A stretch of DNA of 64,000 nt from Diacronema lutheri (lineage: Eukaryota; Haptophyta; Pavlovophyceae; Pavlovales; Pavlovaceae), in contig JAGTXO010000065.1 in NCBI GenBank assembly GCA_019448385.1, positions 62,001-126,000 of the forward strand, written 5' to 3'. Shown here piece after piece: positions 434 through 37,250 of the stretch (position 1 is the first letter of the stretch; the number at the start of each line of letters is the position of its first letter). A program made the translations under genes and the position numbers. The notes below the pieces were generated by a model that saw only the letters and a list, made by a program, of their open reading frames with translations, did no database searches and had not been told where the DNA came from.

Positions 434-1586
434 TCAAAGCGTGGGCGGGGCGTCGCGCGTTCCGGGCGCCTGGCCGCCCGCTCCGGCAGCGCCGCCAGCG
501 GGCGAGGGCGGCGCGGAGGGGTGCAACGCAGCGACGGCATCCGAGAGCGCCTTGGCCGCCTTGGCCTTGGGCCGGACGACCTCGTCGACGAGCCCAAACT
601 CGACCGCCTCCTCCGCCGAGAGGAAGCGGTCGCGGTCGAGCGCCGCCTCGATTTCCGCAAGGCCGCGTCCAGAGTGCGCCTCGAAGAGGCCGTACAGCCG
701 CGCCTACGCCGGCACACGCGGGGCAGCCGCGGCGCGCGGCGGCGGCGCCAGACCCCACCGTAAGCAGCAGCCGCACGCCTGGCCGTCAAGGAAGCGGGGG
801 GAGGGGGGAGGGGCAAAGGTGGCAAAGGTGGCAAAGGGGGGAAAGGCCGCACCTTGAGCTGGAGCATCTCGGCTGTGTGGATCTGAATGTCGGACGCCTG
901 CCCGCTCACACCACCGTGCGGCTGGTCACACGCCGCGGCGGGCCAAGCGCGGGCGGAAGGCGCGCGAAAACTGAGGCCGCGCCCACACGCCCTTGGCGCG
1001 CGCGTGCGCGCGCGCGCGCAAAGCCTCGCCGGCGCGCGCGCCGACGGCGCACCTGGTGCACCATGATGCGCGCGTTGGGCAGCGAGCGCCGCAGCCCGGG
1101 CGAGCCCGCGGCAAGCAGCAGGCTTGCCATCGAGCACGCCTGCCCCACGCAGAGCGTCGAGACGGGCGCGCGCACAAACTGCATCGCGTCGTAGATCGCG
1201 AGGCCGGCGGTGACGAGGCCGCCTGGCGAGTTGATATACATGTGGATGGGCGCCTCCTGCGAGAGCGAATCGAGATAGAGGAGCTGTGCGACGACGAGCG
1301 CCGACGTGTTGTCATCCACCGGCCCGTTCACGCATAGGATCCGCTCGACGAGCAGCCGCGAGAAGATGTCGTACCCGCGCTCGCCGCGCGCGGTCGTCTC
1401 GACGACGTACGGGATGTTGAGCGCAGACGGCGGCGGGGCGGGCGGCGCGGCCCAGCCAGACCATGGTGTTGCCGCCGCCACGTGCCAGCTCGGCTGGGAT
1501 GTGTGCCGGTCGTACAGCCCGACCGGCGCTGAGGTCCAGGTCGACACCGCACGCCGGAGCGTCCACGAGCGTCGGAGCACGCCCAT
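434..1586 (-). CDS. clpP: ATP-dependent Clp protease proteolytic subunit (ClpP), three exons
   Basis: Serine peptidase subunit of the Clp protease, which degrades proteins fed by a AAA+ unfoldase in mitochondria or plastids. Exons: 1586-1053, 921-853, 703-434; both introns (131 and 149 nt) start GTGCG and end AG. The spliced product is 290 aa. The nucleophile Ser sits in [11 protein letters not shown], the His in NARIMVHQ (HQ is the last codon pair of exon 1), and the Asp in LDRDRF of exon 3. Exon 2 supplies the conserved [12 protein letters not shown] stretch. The first ~55 residues are Arg/Ser/Ala-rich and acid-poor, like an organelle transit peptide; the mitochondrion is my preference but a plastid is possible. 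The C-terminal ~40 residues after VDEVV are an Ala/Pro-rich tail. It is divergent from MBF1, with starts 94 bp apart. Confidence 0.93.
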
Positions 1587-1680
1587 TGCTGCGTCACTCG
1601 TCGCACGTCACGCGTGACGCGGTTTTGCTACGCGTTGGGTCTGGGGTCCGGCGGACGCCAGCCCAGACTGCGACAACGCG

Positions 1681-2569
1681 ATGGCAGACGGGCAGGTGAG
1701 CGCGCGGCCGTTGGGCGTTCGCGCGGTCGCTCGGCGCGCACTCACGCGCCTCCTGCGCGGTGCGCGTGACCGCGCGCGCGTGGGCAGGATTGGAACACAG
1801 TCTCTTTCACCAAGCGGCCGAGCAAGCCGCCGAGCGCCGCCGCCAACAAGCAGGAGTTCAACAAGGCGCTGCGCGAGGGTGGCTCCATCGAGTCGACCAA
1901 AAAATGTGCGTCGCTGAGCGCGCGCGCCCGGGGGCGCAGCCGAGGCGCTCGCAACGTTGTGCGAACTGACGTTTTGCGCGCCACGCGGGTCGTGCGCGCC
2001 GCGCAACCGGCGTGGCATCGCTGTGGCATCGCTGCTTTGCGGGCGCCGATGCTTGGTTGGCCGCCAGCGCCGCGCGCTGCTGCACGCGCGCGGCGCTGAC
2101 GCGCGCGCTCCGCCCCGCTCCCTCGTGCGCCACGCCGCCTCCCGCCAGTCGCGGGCGGGAAGAACACGGCTCTTGCAACGGCCGGCGCGGGCATCAATGC
2201 AGCGCGGCTCGACGCTGAGACGGAGGAGCTGCGCCGTACGCCGCACCGCACGCGCCGCCGCGCGCGGAGTCGCGCGCGTCGCTCGCTTGGCGGCTGCGCG
2301 GCTCATACGGTCGCGCCTTCGCGTGTGTCGCGCGCGCGCGTCCGCCTCCGGCTCGCGCAGACCAGAAGGTCGACATTGGCCTGAGCAAGGCGATCCAGCA
2401 GGCGCGGATGGCGAAGGGCGTGACGCAGGACGCGCTCGCTAAGCAGCTCAACATCGACAAGAAGATCATCGCCGAGTACGAGAACGGCAAGGCGATACCC
2501 AACGGGCAGGTCATCGCCAACATCGAACGGGCGCTCGGCACAAAGCTGCCTAGGCCGCCCAAGAAGTAG
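1681..2569 (+). CDS. MBF1: Multiprotein bridging factor 1 (MBF1), four exons
   Basis: Transcriptional coactivator that bridges TBP and gene-specific activators, also linked to ribosome-collision responses in other eukaryotes. Exons: 1681-1695, 1788-1905, 2149-2235, 2361-2569, giving 142 aa, the usual family length. Exon 1 encodes only MADGQ. Exon 2 continues DWNTVSFTKRP and ends in TKK plus one base; the junction rebuilds TKKFAGGKN. The last exon carries the Cro/C1-type helix-turn-helix, from VDIGLSKAIQQAR through DALAKQLNIDKKIIAEYE to IERALGTKL and a basic tail PRPPKK. Every junction restores MBF1-like sequence, so the splicing is well supported. Donors are GTGAG, GTGCG and GTACG. Divergent from ClpP. 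Confidence 0.95.
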
Positions 2570-2928
2570 CTGACTCGCACGCTGCCCAGCGCCACCTGAG
2601 CGAGCTCGCGGCGAGCCTCGCGCTTGGCGCCGAGGAGGCCGAGACCGGTGTTTGGCCGAGGAGCGAGGCGGTGCGGCCACTCCAGGACCACGCTCGACTC
2701 GTGTGAGCTTCAGATGTCGATTTGAATTTCAGGTTTGCCGCCGTTGGCGGTGCGTTTGCCGCAGGCCTGAGGAGGCCTGACTGCGCGCGAGCCTGGGCGT
2801 TGGTGAGGCGCGAGCAGCGCGTTGGCACTCCGTGAGTGACCTCCAGGTTGCCACGGTCTTGCCAGGCACTCCGACGCCATCCAAGTGAAAAAAAATGGTG
2901 CTGTAATTAATTTTGCGGTTTTCGCGCC
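2570..2928. other. Intergenic region upstream of the glycosyltransferase
   Basis: About 360 bp with no supported ORF. The 3' portion (about 2886-2925) is an unusually AT-rich patch for this genome, with an A8 run and TAATTAATTTTGCGGTTTT immediately before the ATG at 2929. This is a plausible core promoter or 5' leader of the glycosyltransferase. No canonical TATA box was identified. Confidence 0.4.
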
Positions 2929-5579
2929 ATGGGCGGTCGATCCGAGATCACGAGGTTCACACGCCGCCGTCGGCGGCTGCGCGACGAGTCGAGCGCGAAC
3001 GGCGACGGCGATGGCGAGGGTGAGGGCGAGACGGGCAGGACCAGCCCGTCCTCGTCGTCTCGGAGCACCGCGAGCTCGCCCACCAGCCCGAGAAGCGCCG
3101 ACAGACGCATGCGCTCGCCCGCGATGGTGACGCGCAGCGCGCGGCCGCGCGCCGCGGCGGGCGCGGGCACGGCGGGCGCGACGCGCGCGCCCACGAGCGT
3201 GCAGTGCAGCTTGGAACCAATCGTGCCGAGCGAGTGTCGACGCGAAGCGCCGTCCAAACGGCCTTGGCTGCGCGCAGCGCTCGTGGCTGCGTGCGTCGCG
3301 GCGGCCGCTGCAGCAGCGGGCGTGCTGCGCAACGCGGGCAGCGTGGCGCGTGGCGGCGAGCCGCCAGCCCCGTTTGGCGAAGTTGCCGGAGCAGCAGCTG
3401 CGCTCAACGGCACATCCGCGTGGGCTCTCGCCGAGCGCGGCGCGCCCGCGGGGGCAGACGCTCAGCTGCTGCCCGACGCGCTGCGCGCGCTGCCTCGCCA
3501 GCGGGTCGCGCTCTTCAGCGCAAACTTTGACTACAACCTAGACGGCGTCGCGCTCACGCTCAACCGGTTGGTTGGTGCGCGCGCACGCGCGCTCCGCGCG
3601 AGCTCGCGCCGCCCGCGCCGCCTAAGAGCGCACGTGCCGTCCGGCGCGCGCGCGCGCACGCCGCGCTCGCCCTCCGGCTTTTCCGCTCAGCGCACCTGCT
3701 GCGTGAGGGTCACGCCGTCGCCGTCTTTGCACCGTCGCGCGCGCATCGCGTCATCCCGCCGCCCGAGCCGCCCAGCATGGCGCGCGCCGACCGGTCCGAG
3801 CTCGACGCGCGGCCGCCGGCGTGTGGCGCGGTCGGATGCGAGCGCACCCGCGAGGCGGGCGAAACGCCGCGCTTCGTGCAGGTGGTTGCGCCGTCCGTGC
3901 GATGCCCAATCTTTAAAGAGTAGGGCGCATGCGCGCTCGCCTCGCACCCGCCCGCCGAACGCTCGCGCCGGCCGTTGGGCGGGCGATTGGCGCGCGCGTG
4001 CGGCCGCGGCTGCGTTCGCCGATGCCCCGCTCGCCGCCTGCCCCGGCGCATGGCCGCGCGTGTGCGCACGGCAGGTACGAGCTCACGCTGCCCGCACTCG
4101 GAGCCGACCTCGCCGCCGCGCTGCGCGCCTTCCGCCCGACCGTCGCGCACATTGCGACACCTGACCCGCTCGGTGCGGCACGCGCCGCGATGAGCGCGCG
4201 CGTGGGGGCGGCGCTCCGCGCGGCCGCGCGCGCCCCTGGCGCGCGCCCGTCTTACACTTGACGCGAACGTCTCACGCCGCCGTGCGCGAGCGCGCGTGCA
4301 GGCCACGCGGCGCAGCGCTGGGCGGCGCGCGCGGGCGTGCCTGTCGTCTGCTCGTTCCACACACGTTACCACCGTTACCTGCACTATTATGGGCTGGGCT
4401 GGACCGAACCGCTCTACTGGTGGGCGCTACGCAGGGTGAGCGCGCCGCGAAGCGCGGCCGCCGCGCCTTCGCGCGCCGCGCGGCCGCCGCGCCTCCCGGC
4501 CGCGCGCGCGCTGATGCTCCGGGCGCGGCGCGCCGGTGCGACGCGATGGGCGCGACCAGTTTCACGCGCGGTGCGGCGGGGGCACGTTCCCGCCGTCCGA
4601 GGCCGTCGCAACCGAGTTGCGCGCGCACGGCATCGGCAACGTGCGGCTATGGGCGCGTGGCGTGGACACGGAGCGCTTCGCGCCCGCCAGGGCATCGCAC
4701 GCCCTGCGCGCCAGCTGGCAGCGGCAGGCGGCGGAACAGCGAGCGCGGCCGCACGCAGCGCTCGCGCCCGAGCGCAGCGCCCACGGCGCGCGCCGCGCGC
4801 GCGGGCTGGGCCAGCGCGTCGCAGCGCTCGCGGCGCGCGCGCTGCGTGCGGCTCGCCTCGGCCTTGCACGCCACCACCGCCGCGCCGGCCGGCAGCGCGA
4901 GGCGCGCGCGCCGCCGCGGAGTGCGGACGCGCCCCGCGCCGCGCCAGCCGACGCGCGGCCGCGCGCTGACGAGCGAGACGGCGGCTCTGCGCTGGCCGCC
5001 GCGCGCGCGGCACCCGCGCTCGAGGCGATGGCGTCGGGCGTGCCCATTCTGCTGCTCGTCTCAAGGCTGCGCTGGGAGAAAGGCCTTGCCGGCTTCGCGG
5101 CAGTCGTGCGCAGGCTCGAGGAGCAGCGCGTGCCGCACGTGGCGGTGGTCGTCGGCGATGGCGGCGCGCGGCGCGCGCTCGCGCGGCTGCTGCCGCGCGC
5201 CGTCTTCACCGGCGCGCTCGCGGGGGAGGCGCTCGCCGCGGCGTACGCGTCGGCCGACGTCTTCCTGACGGCGAGCGAGACGGAGGGCTGGGGTGGCACG
5301 GTCCTCGAGGCGATGGCGTCGGGCCTGCCCGTCGCGGCGTACGCCGCGTCGGGCATCTCACAGCTCATCGCGCATGGCCGCTCGGGGCTGCTCGCGCCGC
5401 CACGCGACGTGGGCGCGCTCGCCGCGCATGCGGCGGCGCTGCTGCGCGCGCCGCGTGCCGAGCGCGCGGCGCTGAGCGCGGCGGCGCGGCAGATCGCGTG
5501 CGGCTATGGCTGGGGCCGCGAGCTGCGCCGGATGGAGCGCTACTATCACGAGGCGCGGGGGGGGGAGGGGGAAAGTTGA
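2929..5579 (+). CDS. Membrane-anchored glycosyltransferase family 4 (GT-B fold), five exons
   Basis: Predicted retaining glycosyltransferase of the GT4/SQD2-like group, using a nucleotide-sugar donor. Exons: 2929-3574, 3691-3919, 4075-4172, 4302-4435, 4560-5579; 708 aa. The junctions restore NRLVAHLLREGHAV, FKEYELTLPALG, DPLGHAAQRWAA and WWALRRFHAR. Residues ~113-133 are a single hydrophobic segment after a charged Ser-rich N-terminus, so a type II membrane protein is likely. The N-terminal half has the FSANFDYNLDGVALTL start of the GT-B fold; the C-terminal half has VSRLRWEKGL, the donor-site SETEGWGGTVLEAMASG, and a terminal helix. Acceptor and linkage cannot be told from sequence. Exon 5 carries a long Arg/Ala-rich stretch (~4740-5030) that could hide another intron, though the frame stays open. 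The last codons end in a G-rich tract that overlaps the next minus-strand ORF. Confidence 0.87.
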
Positions 5580-27347: not shown

Positions 27348-28694
27348 TTAGCGCGCGGCGAGGATCGCGGCGCTCACCCAGTCGAAGACGGAGTAGACGA
27401 TGGACGCGAGCGGCGCAAGATAGAGCACGCGCGGCAGCACGCCCGCCATCAGCGCGCCCGCGCCCTCCTCGCGCGCGACGCGCGCGATCGTGTTGAAGGT
27501 GCCCGAGTACGGGGTGGAGCCATCCGCGTCCGCCTGCGTCATCAACCGCGTCTTGGCCACGTCGAAGGGGGTGAGGAGCACGGCGGCGATCGCGCCGCCG
27601 AGCGTGCCGCACGCAAGGTCGAAAGAGACGCCGCTCAGCCCGACGGAGGCCGCGGCCTTGAGCAGGATGCGGAAGAAGCAGAACGAGAGCGCGTTCCATG
27701 GCACGTCACGGAGCACCGTCGAACTCAGGCCGCGGTAGAAGCGCGCGGGGCCGTCGGGCAATAGCGCACGCAGGCACGCGAGTGCGTCCGGGTACCGGCC
27801 CGCCTGCGAGCGCGCGCGCGCGCGCGCCGGGCCCGCGCGGACGGGCGGTGCGCGGGCGCGGCGGCGCGGCATGAGCCGAGCGCGGCGTGGCGCAGGCGCG
27901 CGGCGCCGCGAGCCCGCGCGCCACGAGGGCGGCGGCGGTCACGTGCGGAGGGCGGCGGCGGCCACGAGCGGAGGGCGGCGGCGGCCACGTGCGGCGCCAC
28001 CGCACGGCACGGTCGCGTGACGGCCGCCATGACGACCCGCGCACTATCAGCGCCGAGCGTCCGCTCGCCGCTCCCCGCCGCCACCGCCAGCGCGACGCGA
28101 GCTGCGTGCGTGCTCTTGCACCTGCACGGGCTGCTTCACATTCTCCTGGGGCACGCGCACGATGGAGGCGGCGAGCGCGCCGCACGCGGCGGCGAGCAGG
28201 TTGACGGCGGCGGGCGAGGGCACCGCGCCCGTGAGCAGCCCGCGCGCGTACTCGAGCGTCGCGAACTGCAGCGCGCCCGCCGGCCCCGCGAGGAGCACCT
28301 GCGGGAGCAGGCCGCGGCAGAGCGTGCGCGCGAGCGGCTCGGCGGGCGGAACGCCGCCGCCGGCCGAGGCTCCGGGCAGATCGCCGCGCTTCTTGGCCTG
28401 CGCGCGCGTGCGCAGCGTGTCGAGCGGGTGCAGCAGCGTCTGCGCCACCGTGCGCGCGATCGAGCCGGCGATCATCCGCTCGACGAACGTCAGCTCGGCG
28501 CCGACCATCCGCGCGCCACCGCCGCCGCCGCCATGCCGCGCGCGCGGGCCGAGCGCGCGCGCGCGGCCGGCAGGCACGGTGCGGAACGGCGGAGCGGCAA
28601 GCCGCGCAGGCGCGAGCACCACGTGCGCGCGTGCACTCGCGCCGAGCAGCGCGAGGGCGAGGAGGCCGACCGCGTGTTTGCGCATGCTGCTCAA
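27348..28694 (-). CDS. Mitochondrial-carrier family (SLC25), S-adenosylmethionine-carrier-like, two exons
   Basis: Six-helix solute carrier; exons 28694-28122 and 27803-27348, 342 aa (339 if the Met at 28685 is used). The intron (318 nt, donor GTGCA) restores VKQPVQAGRYPDAL. The three carrier signatures are visible: HPLDTLRTRAQ, VPQENVKQPVQ and TPFDVAKTRLM. The wording around them (SIVRVPQENVKQ, VLRDVPWNALSFC, LPRVLYLAPLASI) is closest to the SAM carrier subgroup. The N-terminus MRKHAVGLLALALLGASARA is a good signal peptide, followed by a basic Ala-rich stretch. In algae with complex plastids this two-part leader usually directs proteins to the plastid, so import of SAM across a plastid envelope is a reasonable inference. 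Confidence 0.85.
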
Positions 28695-28779
28695 TTTCGC
28701 CCGAGCGATGGCGCCGCAACGGCCTATGCGCTTGGAGTGAAAGTGCGCAACGGCCTAGCCGCGCATCCCGGGCGCGGCG

Positions 28780-31700
28780 ATGGGGCGGCTGGTGAGCGTG
28801 CAGATCAACGGGACGCAGCACGTCGTGGTGGTCGATCCGGTCGACGCCAGCTCCACCCTCGCAGAGGTCGCGGCGCACGTGAGCGCGCGCGCCGAGTCGA
28901 TCGCGCCAAGCGGCGCGACCGCCGGCGGCCTGCCCGCGTGCGAGCTGCGCACGGTGCGCGGCGAGGCGCTGCGCTCCGTGCGGCAGCTGCTCGACGAAAA
29001 GATCGTGCTCTTCTGCCGGCAGGGCGAGCCGGTCGAGCCCGTGCCCCTCCCCACCTGGCACCCCGACCGCTCGCTGCACGAGGCGAGGCTTGCCGCTCCG
29101 CCCAACGGCGCGCGCGGCGCGCCGCTCGGCGCGCCGCCCGCGCTCGCCGAGCTCGACGGCGTCGGCGGTGGTCTGGGCGAGCGTAACGGCGCGCGCGCGC
29201 ACCGCTTGCCCTCGCCCTTGCGCGCCTTGGCGCATGCCGCCGGCGCGGCCGCGCACGGCGCCGGCGGCGTCGGTGGCTGCTTTGGCGGCGGCGACGCGGG
29301 CAGCGCGACGTGCGAGCGCCTCGCGTCGACGGCGACGGCATCATGGATACACCACCTCACCGCCGCGGCCGCCGGCCGTCCGCCCTCGCCTGGCCGGCGT
29401 GGCGGCATCACGCTGAACGCGGGCGCGCGCCCGCCGTCGCCCGGCCGTTGCGCGGGCGGCTACGGCGGCGGCGGCGCGCCGGCCGACGGCGGCGCGTGCG
29501 CGCGCGGCTTTGCGCCGCAGCTGTCAGCGCCGCCCGCGCGCGAGCTGGCGCCGGCCAACGCGACACTGGTGCGCGCGGCCGCCGTCGGCGTTGCGCATGG
29601 CAACGCGGCTGCGCATGGCGACGCGGCTCAGCTGCGCGCACGGCCGCGCGCGCTCGCGTACGGTGGCGAAGGCGGAGGCGAAGGCGGAGGCGGAGGCGGA
29701 GGCAGCGGGGGCGAAAGCTCGCCGCCGCAGCAGCATGCGTGGGCGCACGCCGCAGCGGGCTCGCACGCCGCGCCGTTCGCCGGCCCCTCCGACGCGGACG
29801 CCCTGCGCGCCGAGGCGGCGTATTGGCGATCGCAGGCGTCCGGACTCACGCGCGCCCTGCACGCACGGCACGAGCACACGCCGCCCGCCGCGCAGCTGCA
29901 CGGGCACGCGGCCGCGGCGGATACGCGCGCCGAGCCGCCGCGCCCGCCGCCCGTCCACCGGCCTCCGCCGCCTCTCCCGCCCGGCGCGCGCGCGGCAGCC
30001 GAACAGCGGCCGCAGCTGCACGCCGCCGCAGTCGACGCGGACACGCGCGCGTACGCCGAGCCGTACGACCCTCACGGCGGCGGAGGCGCGTGCGCAGGCG
30101 CGGCATACCTGCCCACGCCGCCGCGCGGGCACACGTACAATGGCGGCGCGGCCGGTGGCGTGGGCGGCGCTGGGTGCGGCGTGCCGAGCAGCGCGGACGA
30201 AATTTCCTTCTGGCGATACCGTTACGCCGGCCTTACCCACTCGCACGATGCGCTCAGGGCGGAGGCGGAGCGGCTGCGCGCGGAGCGCGACACGCTGCTC
30301 GGCGCGCAGCGAGGCGGCGCGGTCGGCGGCGACAGCCGCGCGGCGGACGGCAGCGGCGGCGGCGCCGCGTGCGCGGCCGCGACCACGCTCGCCGGCAGTG
30401 GCGGCGGCGGCGGCGGAGGCGGCGGCGGTGGCCGCGGCGGCGACGGCGGCGCGGAGGCGGACGCGTTGCGCGCGGCGCTCGCCGATGCGACGATGGCGCG
30501 CGAGGCCGCGCGCGCTGCCGCCGCTGACGTGGCGGCCGCGCGCGAGGCGGCGCGCGCCGCCGCTGCCGAGGCCGCCGCCGCGCACGCCGCCGCCGCCGCC
30601 GAGGCCAAGGCGGCGCGTGCGGCGGCGGCCGCGGCGGCGGTCGAGGCCGAGGGCTCGCGCGAGGCGCTTGCGCTCGCGCGCGCGCGCATCGACGCCCTTC
30701 GCGCCGAGCTCGCCGTCGCCGACGCGCACGCGCGGCGGTGGCGCGCACGCGCCCAGGGCGCCGACGCGGCCGCCGTCGACTCGGCCGTAGCCGATCGTGT
30801 TGCAGGCGTCGGCGGCGCGCGCGCGCTCGCGCCGGCCTCGGCGCGCGGTGCGGCGGCGCGTGGCGCGGGTGGCGGCAGCGCGCGCGCGTCGTCGCCGTTC
30901 CGCGCGCAGCCCAAGCGGTCGGCGCCGCGCGCGGCCGGCGCCGACAGCGGCGCGCGCGGCGCGCGTCGCGCGCCGCCGAGCGGCGGCGGCGCGCGCTCTG
31001 CGCAGAGCGGCGGCGACGGCGGCGGTGCCGTGTCCGCGCGGCCGGCCGTGCCGCCGCCGCCGCCGCCGCTGCCGCCGCCGCCTCCGCCGCCGCCCGAGCG
31101 GCCGCCGTTTGCCGGCTGTAAGAAGGGCGCGTGCACGCAGGCCGCGGCCGACGCGCCGCCTGGCGCCGAGCCGCGGTCGGCCGGCGGCAAGGGCGGCGAC
31201 AAGGGCGGCGGCAAAGCGGTTGCCTGGGCTGAGTCGGCGCACGATGGCACCGTCGCCGCGCCCGTCGCGCGCGCGGTGGGCGCGCCGGACGGCGGCGATG
31301 ATGGTGACGAGGGCGAGGAGGGAAGCGCGCACGGGAACACCGCGCACGTGCAGCCGCGCGGCGCGCCCAACCGCGTGCCGGTGCAGCGCCGCTCGGCGCA
31401 GCCGCGCGCGGCGCGCGACGGCGGCGGTGGTGACGGCGGCGACGACGACGACAGCGACGGCGACGAGTTGACGTCTGCGGATGTCGCCGACGTTGAGGCG
31501 CGCGCTGCGGCGATGGCCACGCGCGTGCTGCTGCTTGAAAGCCAGCGCGACGGCCACGACAGCGCGGCGCGCTCGGACGACGACGACGCCGAGCGCGACG
31601 AGGATGCGCGCGCGCCCGCGTCGGGCGGGCGCGGCGCGGCCGAGCGCGCCGTCGCCGCCAACGGCGCCGACGAGCGCGAGCGCGCAGACGGCGACGGCGA

Positions 31701-32976
31701 GCGCGACGGCGCCGACACGGCCGATCCGCGCGCCGCGGTGATTCGCACGCGCCACCTTCTGCTTAAGCACGCGGGCAGTCGTAACCCTGTCAGCCGCAGG
31801 ACGGGCCATTCGACGTCGCACATCACGCGCTCCGCGGCGCTCGCGGAGCTGCGCCGCTGGGAGAGGCGCGTGCGCAAGGGCGAGATCACGCTCGAGCAGG
31901 CGGCGCGCCAACGCTCGGACTGCGCGAGCCACGTGGATGGCGGCGACCTCGGCCCCTTTGAACGCGGCGAGATGCAGTTGCCCTTTGAGGAGGCGGCCTT
32001 TGCGCTCAGCGTTGGGCAGCTGAGCGGTGCGCGCCGTTTCGCGCGCTCTGCCCCGTCCGCACGGCGCCGTGGCCCACCCTCCCCCCCCCCCCCCCCCCCC
32101 GCCCGCCCCTGCCTCGCACGCGCGCACGTGACCACCGCTCCAGCGGGGGCGGCATGGCGCCACCGCGCCGCGTCGAAACGAGAGAGGCGGCGTGGTGCTC
32201 ACGCGAGGGCTCGCGTCGTTGCGCCGCGTGCGCCCCGGTGCGTGCCGTGCCGCCGCGCGTATGTGTGCGTGCGTGCTGCAGGTGTGGTCGAGACGGATTC
32301 CGGGCTTCACCTCATCGAACGCATCCCCCTCGACGATGGGGCGCGTGAGGACGAGGGCGGGGAGGGGGCAGGAAAGGGGGAGGGGGCAGGAAAGGGGAAA
32401 GGGGCAGGAAAGGGGGAAGGGGAGGGTGGAGGGGAAGGGGAGGGGAAAGAAGAGGGCGGAGGGGAGGGGGCAGGAAAGGGGGAAGGGGAGGGTGGAGGGG
32501 AAGGGGAGGGGAAAGAAGAGGGCGGAGGGGAGGGGAGAGGGGAGGATGGAGGGGAGGACGGGCTGCTCGGCGATGATTCGGATGCCACGGCGGACGGTAG
32601 TGACGAGGAGGGCTGGAACGTGGGCGACCAGGGCCAAGGGGAGGGCCAAGGCGGGGACGGCGAGGAGGGAGAGGATGAGGAGGAGGCGGAGGAGGAGGCG
32701 GAAGGGGAGCTGGATGAAGAGGAGGGGGAGGGCGAAGGGGAGGCGGGCGGCCTACCGCGAGAAGACGGCGACGAGGGCAGCGCGGAGGCGGACGGGGAGG
32801 AGGAGGCGGACGGGGAGGAGGAGGCGGACGGGGAGGAGGAGGCGGACGGGGAGGAGGAGGCGGACGGGGAGGAGGAGGCGGACGGGGAGGAGGAGGCGGA
32901 CGGGGAGGAGGAGGCGGACGGGGAGGAGACAGGCGAGGAGGACAATGGCAACGACGGCGAAGAGGTTGACGAGCAG

Positions 32977-33007
<31 letters not shown>

Positions 33008-36000
33008 CCAGCGAGGATGAGGCCGAAGCCGCGCCGGGCGAGACAAGCGACGAGGACAACGCGGCACGCGCCGAGCGGCTGCGTGCTGACCTCGCCGCTG
33101 TTTCGCGATCAGCCGCTCTGCGCGGGGCCTTCACGCTTGAGCTGAGGGCACCCGTTGATATCGCCAAGGAGACGTGCGCGCCTCGCCTCCCCTCCCTCAC
33201 ACGCAGCGCGCCCCGTACCTCACCCCCTCTAGCGTCTCACTTAACCCCACTCCCGCCCCCCCACCCCCCTCCCCTTACCCCCTTCGCCCCTTGCGCGCAG
33301 CTGGGTGGCGCACACGGCGCTGCCTCTCGCCACCGACGAAGGCTTCGTCCCGCCGCTGCCCGCGCCGCGCACGCCGCCATGCGCGCAGGCGTGGTGGGAC
33401 GTGCGCGCTGCCATTGACGCGCGCAGCGGCGACGACGGCTTGGGTTCGCCGTCCGCGCCGCTCGTGCCCTCCCTCTCCCTTGGCGCGCTCTTCACGCGCT
33501 CGGTCCGGTTGGGCACGTCCGGTGTGTCCGACGCTTCCGGAGGCGACAAGTCGGACAGGTCCGACTCGCCGCCGGATTCGGGCGCTTTGTCGGAGCGGTC
33601 GCAGCGGCAGCGCAAGCTCTCGCGCTACGAAGGCGAGCTGTCAACGGTTCTCCCCTTCCTCGCGCTCTCCGGCGCCGCCTCCGCCTCCGACCGCGCCGCC
33701 CTCGCCGCCGCGGGCATCACGCACGTGCTCAACTGTGCGCGCATCGTCTGCGCCAACACCTTCGAGCGGCAGGCCGTCGATGGCGGCAGCGAGGACGCGA
33801 ATGCGCATGAGCCGCCGCTTAGCTACATGTCGCTCTGGCTCCTGGACACGCCGTCCGGTACGGCCGCGGGCTGCCGCCGCCACCGCCACCGTCGCCGCCA
33901 CGCGCGCCGCCGCTCGCCGTACCGGCTTGCGACCGCTGCCCGCCACTGCCTGCGCTGTGCTCGCCTGCAGCCGCCCAGCTTGCCACCGCGACGGCCGCAC
34001 CCCTCCGTCTCTCGCACCCATCGCGTGCCGCGCCCCGCCGACGATCGCGCGCCTTGCCTTCCGCCGCGCGCGCGCAGAGGACGTGACGTCGGTGCTATAT
34101 GATGCGATTCAGTTCATCGAGGCTGCGCGCACCTCTGGCGGCAAGGTGCTCGTGCACTGCCACCAGGGGGTCTCGCGCTCAGTGAGCGTGGCCGCAGCCT
34201 ACCTCATCTGGAAGAACGGTCTCACCTTTCACGAGGCCTTTGCGCAGATCAAAGCCGCACGGCCGATCGCCTCGCCAAACATCGGTGCGCGCCCCATTGC
34301 CATTGCCCCACTGCCATTGCCCCCACTGCCGTCGCCCCCTCTGCCATTGCCCCCTCTGCCGTCGCCCCCTCTGCCATTGCCCCCTTCTGCCGTCGCCCCC
34401 TCTGCCATTGCCCCTTCTGCCATTGCCCCCTCTGCCATTGCCCCCACTGCCATTGCCCCCTCTGCCATTGCCCCCACTGCCGTCGCCCCCTCTGCCATTG
34501 CCCTCTCTGCCATTGCCCTCTCTGCCATTGCCCCCACTGCCATTGCCCTCTCTGCCATTGCCCCCTCTGCCATTGCCCCCTCTGCCATTGCCCCTTCTGC
34601 CGTCGCCCCCTCTGCCATTGCCCCTTCTGCCATTGCCCCCTCTGCCATTGCCCTCTCTGCCATTGCCCCCTCTGCCATTGCCCCCACTGCCATTGCCCCC
34701 TCTGCCATTGCCCCCTCTGCCATTGCCCCCTCTGCCATTGCCCCCTCTGCCATTGCCCCCTCTGCCATCGCCCCCTCTGCCATTGCCCCTTCTGCCATTG
34801 CCCCCTCTGCCATTGCCCCCACTGCCATTGCCCCCTCTGCCATTGCCCCCACTGCCGTCGCCCCCTCTGCCATTGCCCCTTCTGCCATTGCCCCCTCTGC
34901 CATTGCCCCCACTGCCATTGCCCCCTCTGCCATTGCCCCCACTGCCGTCGCCCCCTCTGCCATTGCCCTCTCTGCCATTGCCCTCTCTGCCATTGCCCCC
35001 ACTGCCATTGCCCCCTCTGCCATTGCCCCCACTGCCGTCGCCCCCTCTGCCATTGCCCTCTCTGCCATTGCCCCTCTCTGCCATTGCCCCCTCTGCCATT
35101 GCCCTCTCTGCCACTGCCCCCTCTGCCATTGCCCCCTCTGCCATTGCCCTCTCTGCCACTGCCCCCTCTGCCATTGCCCCTTCTGCCATTGCCCCCTCTG
35201 CCATTGCTCCCTCTGCCATTGCTCCCTCTGCCATTGCCCCCTCTGCCATTGCCTCCTCTGCCATTGCCCCCTCTGCTATTGCCCCCTCTGCCATTGCCCC
35301 CTCTGCCATTGCCCCCTCTGCCATTGCCCCTTCTGCCATTGCCCCCTCTGCCATTGCCCCCTCTGCCATTGCCCCCTCTGCCGTTGCCCCCTCTGCCATT
35401 GCCCTCTCCACTTCCGCTGCTGCCCGCCCCACCGCTCGCGTGTGTGCGTGCGCCTACTTGCGTGCGCCTACTTGCCACGCCGCGCCGCGCCGCGCCGAGC
35501 CGCGTCCTCAGCCGAACCACGCGCGCCGCGGCCGTGCGCCGTCTGGCCCGGCGCCGCCCGAGGACCGCGCCGCTGGCCGTAGCGTTGAGCCGCAGAGCGC
35601 CGCCTCCTTCGCGCCGCGCCCCCGTCGCTCGCTCGGCGCGTGCGCAGGCTTCACAGTCGCGCTGCTCCTGTGGGAGAGACGGTGCGTCGCAGCGCGCGCG
35701 CACCGTCGGCTACTCGCGCCCTACGGCGCGGACGACGACGACGGTGACGGTGGCGTCGAGCCGCTGCGCACTGCAGATCGCCTCTCAGACGGCTCGGGGG
35801 ACGATGACGATGAAACCGACGCGCAGGCCGCCGCCACGGCGCGCGAGCGCCGGCGCGCGCGCCGCGCCGCCCGCTCGATGCCCTCGCACGAGCTCTTCGT
35901 CGTGCGGCACGCGGAGTTTGCCACTGCCGGCGACGTGCCGCGCGCGCGCGCCGCGCCCGCCGCCGCGCTACGCGCCATCGTCGCTGCCGGCGCAACGCTC

Positions 36001-37250
36001 GGTGCCGAGGGTGGGCGGGAAGACAGGGGGCCGGAGCCAATAGGCGCAGACGGGCTGCGCTGGGCTGCTGACGCGCTCGACCAAAACGCGCTGTGGCTGC
36101 TGCGCACACCGGCCGCCATCTTCAAATGGTGCGCGCGGGGGGCGGTGCGTGGGCGCACTGCACCACGCCGCACCGCGCCGCGCTGCGCTGCGCTGGGCCC
36201 GCACCCTCGCGCAACGCGGCTTGTGCTGTTGTGTCGTGGCAGCGCGGCGTGCCGTGGTGTGCAGCGCGGCGCGGCGTTGATGCGACGCGCTGCGCCCCGC
36301 ATTGCCCCACTCCCTCGACTTGCCCACGCCCACTCCTTGCCTCAAACATGGACTCGCTTCGCCTCGACCGGCCCCGCCTCGACCGGCCCCGCCTCGACCG
36401 GCCCCGCGTCGACCGCCCCCCCCCCCCCCCCCCGCCCGCGCGCAGGAGCGGCGCGAGCGTGGACGCGCACAACGCTGCGGAGCTGCACGCCGCTTCCGAC
36501 CGTTTCGTCGAGCAGCTGCGCGCCTTCGAGGCGGCGCCCGGTCGGCTCGTCGCGCTCAACGCGCGCGAAGACGCCAACTCGGCGGAGGCGGCCGAGTTCG
36601 CACACGCGCTCGCGCAGGTCGCCGCCGCCGAGCGCGCGGCGAGCGGAGGCGGCGATGGCGCGAGCGACGGCGACGACGGCGGCGGAGCGTCCGCCGCCGA
36701 CGGCGATGCGGCCTCGGCGGACGGCTCGGCGCCGTCGTTGCCGCGGACGCCGCGCTCGTCTCGCGCAGCGTCGGAGGTTGGCTCCGCGTACGGCGGCGCG
36801 CACGCGCAGACCGTCGCCGCCGCCGCCGTCGAGTACGCCGAGCAGGCCGCGCCCAGGTGGCTGAGGATCGGCGCGAACGCGCAGCAGTACCCGCAGCCGC
36901 GCGCGCCGCGGCTGCCGCCCGGACCGCCGCGCGTGTCCGGGCGCGGCTCGAGCGGTGCGTCGATGCGCCAATCGGCTGAGCAGCTCGCGGCGATGCGCGC
37001 CGCGCTGCTCGCAGAGGCGCGCGCGGCCAACGGCGCGCCCGTTTCGCTCTCGGGCGCGCGGCCGGGCGGGCTCGTCGCGTTGCTCGGCGCCAGCTCGACA
37101 GGCGGAGGCGGCGGCGGAGGGGGCGGAAGCAGCGGGGGCATTCCAGACACGTCGTGGCTCAAGGCGCTGCTGCCGGCAGGGGGCGGTGGCGGCGGTGGCG
37201 GGAGCAGCGGCGGTGGCGGGAGCAGCGGAAGCGCGTCCCTATTCGGATGA
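28780..37250 (+). CDS. Fusion of Pin1-type prolyl isomerase, acidic linker, dual-specificity phosphatase and gelsolin-like module, six exons
   Basis: Exons: 28780-32026, 32282-33173, 33301-33857, 34078-34284, 35648-36128, 36446-37250; 2,062 aa with phases matching at every junction. The N-terminal ~85 residues may be a ubiquitin/doublecortin-like fold. A helical low-complexity region follows. The parvulin domain (~986-1095) has IRTRHLLLKH, QRSDCASH (active-site Cys), GGDLGPFERGEM and the rejoined SGVVETDSGLHLIERI; no WW domain is seen. A Glu/Asp/Gly-rich linker follows. The phosphatase (~1490-1650) has AAGITHVLNCARI, the rejoined TPSEDVTSVLYDAIQFIE, catalytic VHCHQGVSRS (HCX5R) and ASPNIGFTVALLLWE. 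A gelsolin-like segment (LLRTPAAIFKWSGASVDAHN) follows, the order seen in plant MKP1. No stop or ATG separates isomerase from phosphatase, which argues for one protein. RNA evidence is missing. Confidence 0.75.
32361..32931 (+). repeat. Purine-rich coding repeats of the acidic linker
   Basis: About 570 bp of almost pure G/A on the plus strand in exon 2 of the fusion gene. It includes a duplicated ~75-bp block around 32390-32530 and eight 18-bp units encoding ADGEEE at 32788-32931. Such G-rich strands may form G-quadruplexes, an inference from composition only. Confidence 0.85.
34285..35410 (+). repeat. 1.1-kb array of 15-bp units (TGCCATTGCCCCCTC) in an intron
   Basis: Roughly 75 units of a 15-bp sequence with few variants (CACTG, CTCTC and GTCGC subtypes), filling most of the inferred 1,363-nt intron 4 (34285-35647) of the phosphatase. 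The flanking exons join as ASPNIG-FTVALL, exactly as in other dual-specificity phosphatases, so the array is not part of the enzyme. All three frames are open through it. Blocks of several units recur, pointing to higher-order duplication. Confidence 0.95.

Follow-up and report, generated by a model that had tools for sequence, protein, structure and literature searches.

Proline-directed phosphorylation is regulated by Pin1-type isomerases and by phosphatases, and the two are usually studied apart. Here we describe a locus of the haptophyte Diacronema lutheri in which a Pin1-type parvulin and a pavlophyte MKP1-like dual-specificity phosphatase with a gelsolin-like segment are probably parts of one fused gene. 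It lies in a stretch of 64,000 nucleotides (G000:C45:62001-126000, hereafter the window). The catalytic residues of human Pin1 are reported as H59, C113, S154 and H157 (PMC6468809), and its basic phosphate-binding loop as K63, R68 and R69; in the same source, the activity of TbPin1 is described as phosphorylation-dependent, with Arg18 and Asn19 responding to phosphopeptide (PMC3416822). Protists are known to have FHA-parvulin fusions, for example TbPar42 (PMC6468809). On the phosphatase side, MPK6 of Arabidopsis is reported to be a substrate of MKP1 that in turn phosphorylates the phosphatase in vitro, raising its activity; the stability of MKP1 also depends in part on phosphorylation (PMC6255987).

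Six joined exons between positions 28780 and 37250 of the window give 2062 codons in a single frame, with agreeing phases and a stop codon at 37248-37250. The order of domains is a Pin1-type parvulin, an acidic linker, a dual-specificity phosphatase and a gelsolin-like segment. This is the gene proposed by an earlier sequence-only reading of the same DNA, and its six in-frame exons have stood up well. The splice points have independent backing. The junction of exons 1 and 2 is backed by an alignment with TbPin1 and by the intron of another Pin1 gene of this genome, while the four later junctions coincide with the ends of tblastn matches to P0006. The latter is a protein of 651 residues, derived from a transcript of Pavlovales sp. 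CCMP2436 (taxid 483367). At the DNA level, a single reading frame joining the parvulin to the phosphatase is well supported. It is likely, judging from the sequence, that one mRNA and one polypeptide are produced from it. The features are as follows.

28780..32026, + strand: exon 1, with the putative start ATG, an N-terminal unit of ~100 residues, a long low-complexity/coiled region and most of the parvulin, in an open frame
31723..32026, + strand: the exon 1 part of the parvulin (Pfam Rotamase, TbPin1 2lj4); the remainder is in exon 2, to about 32337
32027..32281, + strand: intron 1, GTGCG..GCAG, phase 1, with the place and phase of the intron in the single-domain Pin1 gene
32282..33173, + strand: exon 2, 892 bp, with the parvulin end, the acidic linker and the beginning of the phosphatase-conserved block
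32338..33063, + strand: acidic Glu/Gly/Asp linker, 242 codons, with tandem arrays
33064..33173, + strand: conserved block, ..FTLELRAPVDIAKE, up to the end of exon 2 and continuing in exon 3 (33301-33349), found by tblastn with P0006
33301..33857, + strand: exon 3, N-terminal half of the dual-specificity phosphatase
34078..34284, + strand: exon 4, with the HCX5R loop (DSPc 95.1 bits)
34285..35647, + strand: intron 4, mostly a 15-bp minisatellite of about 74 copies
35648..36128, + strand: exon 5, with the end of the phosphatase domain; the gelsolin-like segment begins at about 35875
36446..37250, + strand: exon 6, with the remaining gelsolin-like segment, a conserved C-terminal tail and the stop at 37248-37250

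The genome searched comprises 43,492,796 bases in 103 contigs. The published assembly of D. lutheri NIVA-4/92 is given as 43,502,671 bp in 103 contigs with 73.25% GC, and was annotated using BRAKER2 with RNA-seq; three strand-specific RNA-seq libraries of D. lutheri are published (PMC8379373).

The parvulin is complete, as had been claimed. It matches the Pfam Rotamase family with 72.8 bits (cut-off 21.7) over profile positions 1-95 of 97, which is full length. The closest solved relative is TbPin1 (PDB 2lj4, E 7.5e-39), to which 110 residues align without gaps, and in this alignment the catalytic Cys (Cys1048, codon at 31921-31923), both His and the Ser are all identical. The phosphate loop reads K..SRN, so that the Lys and the first Arg are retained and the third position is Asn, as in TbPin1. 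Elsewhere in the genome there is a canonical single-domain Pin1 gene (L010, G000:C75:611097-614372, start at 1480), in which a TGA follows directly after the parvulin domain. It is 59% identical to the window parvulin over 111 residues and has its intron at the same residue and in the same phase. On sequence grounds, we take the window parvulin to be a paralogue of this gene.

The phosphatase domain matches Pfam DSPc with 95.1 bits (cut-off 33.5), and a search of the genome with the DSPc profile gives a 71-bit match on exon 4. The HCX5R loop lies in this exon (Cys codon 34158-34160, Arg codon 34176-34178) and the general-acid Asp is also present, bearing out the complete phosphatase of the sequence-only reading. 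The transcript-derived P0006 is 47% identical to the phosphatase half over 94% of a 738-residue query. When the whole of P0006 is used in tblastn, exons 3, 4, 5 and 6 are matched, with ends on the predicted junctions; at P0006 residue 276, for example, one match ends at 34286 and the next begins at 35647, at the borders of intron 4. Because it is conserved with P0006, the phosphatase half is under selection. A scan of viral contigs with P0006 gave 47 pattern matches, none of which was confirmed. A second MKP1-like phosphatase was noted in the same genome (L017, G000:C19, match at 355676-356014, - strand), where it occupies a single long open frame. The minisatellite of intron 4 occupies 34298-35408, as about 74 copies of TGCCATTGCCCCCTC. 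The frame of exon 4 is open through intron 4 to 35582, and a retained intron would add several hundred low-complexity residues.

The gelsolin-like segment, also part of the earlier proposal, was recovered by profile methods only. Pfam gelsolin has no match in the window segment by itself or in P0006, and none of its 13 matches in the genome is on the contig of the window. A profile built from two rows, the window segment and the corresponding part of P0006, gave 20 PDB rows at E<=10, and 18 of these are gelsolin, fragmin or villin; the best E is 0.011, and the rows are mostly one protein in many entries. Comparison by hhalign with five gelsolin segments of MKP1-like matches gave a probability of 84.6. 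In the second phosphatase, L017, the Pfam gelsolin match is barely above the cut-off (22.1 vs 21 bits). Searches with a structural model of P0006, by Foldseek (best 50 of 961 at E<=10) and VIA-align (matches listed), returned phosphatase chains or sperm doublet-microtubule entries. The profile results suggest that the segment is likely to be real and lies at the limit of detection. The presence of such a segment in plant MKP1s rests on the Pfam labels of the matches P0010-P0012; no mention of a gelsolin domain in plant MKP1 was found among the open-access papers listed.

The question of one gene or two turns on exon 2. This exon opens with VVETDSGLHLIERI, the end of the parvulin, including the Ser and second His of that domain, and its last ~36 codons, LRADLAAVSRSAALRGAFTLELRAPVDIAKE, are conserved at the start of P0006, residues 1-60 of which match by tblastn at 33064-33174 (E 1.2e-8) and at 33299-33349 (E 0.001). 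Since exon 2 holds both ends without interruption, the parvulin and phosphatase coding regions have an exon and a frame in common. The frame of the model contains 0 stops, vs 11 and 1 in the other two, and no in-frame ATG is present in the 892 bp, just as the sequence-only reading had it for the region ahead of the phosphatase domain. A stand-alone phosphatase would therefore require an unseen upstream first exon.

The linker between the two is indeed acidic, with a net charge of -96 over residues 1102-1372 (a stretch that includes the first ~29 residues of the conserved block). Its length had been put at ~380 residues, which is too long; about 242 residues, 1102-1343, precede the conserved block, and the parvulin and DSPc matches are about 400 residues apart. 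It contains tandem arrays with periods of 18, 24, 30, 36 and 66, among others. That these are multiples of three was considered as an argument for coding and was dropped, because the repeat of intron 4 also has such a period, of 15. From 32560 to 33078 the linker is coding-like, with a GC content at the third codon position (GC3) of 0.86, GAG:GAA of 51:6 and GAC:GAT of 24:6; the reference exons 3-6 have a GC3 of 0.86 and GAG:GAA of 26:5. The pieces of the linker outside the exact 18-bp array have GC3 of 0.78 and 0.82, and GAG:GAA of 18:4 and 9:2.

Several observations weigh against a single fused gene. The ratio GAC:GAT is just 6:5 in 32560-32782, the second non-array piece having 10:1. The region 32326-32559 is atypical, with a GC3 of 0.64 and GGG for 23 of its 37 Gly codons, unlike the reference exons. 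It may hold a small in-frame intron, for which the candidate signals are a GTGAG donor at 32345 and GCAG acceptors at 32371, 32389, 32407 and 32473. In first-order simulations of exon 2, 3.3% were stop-free in one given frame and 8.3% had no in-frame ATG; for the linker alone, the values were 9.8% and 11.6%. Because stop-free frames are not rare in this composition, the open frame by itself is weak evidence. P0006 has no parvulin, and its Met start (MICTTSSAAA) is about 10 residues before the conserved block; this Met may be a true start or may reflect a cut transcript. Separate domains in orthologues would speak for two genes, and the sole orthologue found, P0006, goes some way in that direction. 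Finally, among the matches listed in our protein searches, no protein combines the parvulin and phosphatase Pfam domains.

The best surviving alternative is that two genes overlap or abut here, the parvulin gene running into the linker and the phosphatase having an internal promoter and its own first exon and ATG ahead of the conserved block; the frame would then be continuous by chance, in a repeat rich in G and A and poor in T. The composition that makes stop-free frames fairly common in exon 2, and the Met of P0006, are both in keeping with this. A search for alternative first exons in 31000-33060, using 8 donors (GTGCG/GTACG/GTGAG/GTAAG) and 6 GCAG acceptors in exon 2, gave 29 frame-preserving combinations for a single alternative first exon, involving 5 ATGs. 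Two of these ATGs (31513 and 31972) are inside the frame of the fusion and three (32154, 32261 and 32336) are outside it. However, first exons from the latter three would lie within intron 1 of the parvulin, or run over its last codons in another frame. Such a gene would find no in-frame ATG in exon 2 from which to start, and the linker from 32560 has its coding-like codon bias in the frame of the fusion. We consider two genes a serious competitor, though an unlikely one.

A single transcription unit might alternatively yield chiefly a protein of parvulin and linker, as would happen if intron 2 were retained, with the phosphatase coming from a minor fully spliced form. The frame of exon 2 does stay open through intron 2 into exon 3, as far as a stop at 33415-33417 (open reading frame 28759-33417), but the phosphatase half is conserved with P0006 and so selected, and we regard this arrangement as improbable. 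Least probable is an assembly artefact joining unrelated pieces: the simple repeats of the linker might mislead an assembler, but exon 2 is just 892 bp, the window contains 0 N, and the assembly is built from PacBio data with a commonest nuclear coverage of about x315 and a subread N50 of 23.458 kb (PMC8379373).

We thus favour a single fused gene, and the fusion is probably recent. The phosphatase of CCMP2436 is apparently alone and D. lutheri has a lone parvulin paralogue, and the simplest history is therefore stop loss and linker growth. A parvulin copy upstream of a phosphatase gene would have lost its stop codon, and translation would have read on, through a G/A-rich acidic linker grown by repeats, into the reading frame of the phosphatase.

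The N-terminal part of exon 1 is less easily interpreted. The GC3 of exon 1 is 0.94, 0.89 and 0.85 in three successive segments. The ~100 residues encoded by 28780-29100 show strong coding periodicity (GC content at codon positions 1, 2 and 3 of 0.78, 0.51 and 0.94). The first 98 residues have no Pfam match even at E 10, and no family was recognised for this unit; a search with it of its own genome gave two weak matches apart from itself. AlphaFold, run without relatives on the N-terminal 119 residues, gave an unusable model, with a mean predicted local distance difference test score (pLDDT) of 44.6. This poor model hints at two strands, helices and another strand, a pattern that prompted us to consider a doublecortin- or ubiquitin-like fold, which was then set aside. 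A WW or FHA domain was rejected, as the Pfam scan found nothing but Rotamase families in exon 1 and no family in exon 2; a scan against NCBIfam gave just weak parvulin-family matches, far under the cut-off. Upstream, at 27348-28700 on the - strand, there are coding segments of a mitochondrial carrier (Pfam Mito_carr, 59.6 and 86.5 bits), whose likely divergent start, as read off the sequence, is separated by about 95 bp from the ATG of exon 1 at 28780.

What the fusion might do can only be suggested. The activation loop of mitogen-activated protein kinases (MAPKs) is Thr-X-Tyr (PMC6255987). As this target of MKPs is not a phospho-Ser/Thr-Pro site, joint action of the parvulin and the phosphatase on one residue of the loop is less plausible, and the earlier proposal of isomerising and dephosphorylating the same signalling targets would need adjusting. 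It is more plausible that the parvulin would act on phospho-Ser/Thr-Pro sites made by MAPKs, whether these lie within the phosphatase or in substrates of the MAPKs. Three Ser/Thr-Pro sites occur between residues 1373 and 1510, ahead of the core of the phosphatase domain. They include SDSPPDSG, which is aligned opposite SISPSDSAG of P0006. We have a candidate in the SP just ahead of the phosphatase domain, which is also in CCMP2436: a MAPK would phosphorylate such sites of the fusion protein, and the tethered parvulin would bind or isomerise them, tuning the activity or stability of the phosphatase. Alternatively, it would hold the phosphatase close to other MAPK-phosphorylated proteins. The isomerase would then be a built-in switch acting in cis, by which the protein's own isomerase reads its MAPK phosphorylation, or a targeting head. 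We offer this tentatively, as a rather doubtful proposal.

If correct, it would amount to a natural single-chain loop of proline-directed kinase, isomerase and phosphatase. A fusion made by nature would suggest that Pin1-type isomerases and MKP1-type phosphatases are directly linked in function, and their coupling would be testable in one chain. If on the other hand the locus is a mere genomic accident, it would illustrate how, where a genome is very GC-rich and compact, two coding regions may end up in one exon once a stop codon has been lost beside a growing repeat.

The searches for other such proteins covered candidates of about 1134-3600, about 406-1290 and about 407-1295 residues; the first two scored those candidates with the most words in common (7983 and 7996). 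By precomputed labels, proteins with both Pfam domains numbered 0/5, 0/10 and 0 of the best 120 of 433 matches, so that the co-occurrence of Rotamase and DSPc, suggested earlier as a check, did not appear among the matches listed. These zeros say little on the annotation of D. lutheri, since none of the proteins listed is marked as the window's own, none of the names given is Diacronema and most are nameless. No description of a parvulin fused to a dual-specificity phosphatase was found in the open-access literature searched (most subscription papers are outside it), in line with the earlier statement that no described protein with this order was known. As far as these searches go, the component domains are known and their combination is new. 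A metagenome protein of 604 residues (P0019) was also noted, with a C-terminal Pin1-type parvulin and a weak PH match (E 0.18). Its DWDDTLFPT motif looks HAD-like but has no Pfam match, and P0019 may be a further case of a parvulin joined to a phosphatase-like domain.

How, then, does the locus compare with known systems? The D. lutheri parvulin has in common with TbPin1 a gapless alignment, the catalytic residues and the SRN phosphate loop, but TbPin1 is a lone domain, whereas the D. lutheri parvulin is residues 982-1101 of a 2062-residue frame. P0006 is orthologous to the phosphatase half, from the conserved block through to the C-terminal tail, and differs in having no parvulin and a Met start close to the block. 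Plant MKP1-type phosphatases (the banana-family matches P0010-P0012, PF00782 and PF00626) likewise have a DSPc domain followed by a gelsolin-like segment. Unlike them, the D. lutheri protein has a segment with no Pfam gelsolin match from sequence only and a parvulin upstream, and the conserved block before the domain is seen in the pavlophyte pair only. The search matches also included proteins with FHA and parvulin domains, P0016 (metagenome) and P0017 (Cyanidium caldarium), in which by eye an FHA domain is followed by seemingly two parvulin segments. Like the TbPar42-like proteins, they resemble the D. lutheri frame in that a parvulin is linked to another phospho-signalling module in unicellular organisms. 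Their partner is a phosphopeptide-binding domain, whereas in D. lutheri it is a phosphatase.

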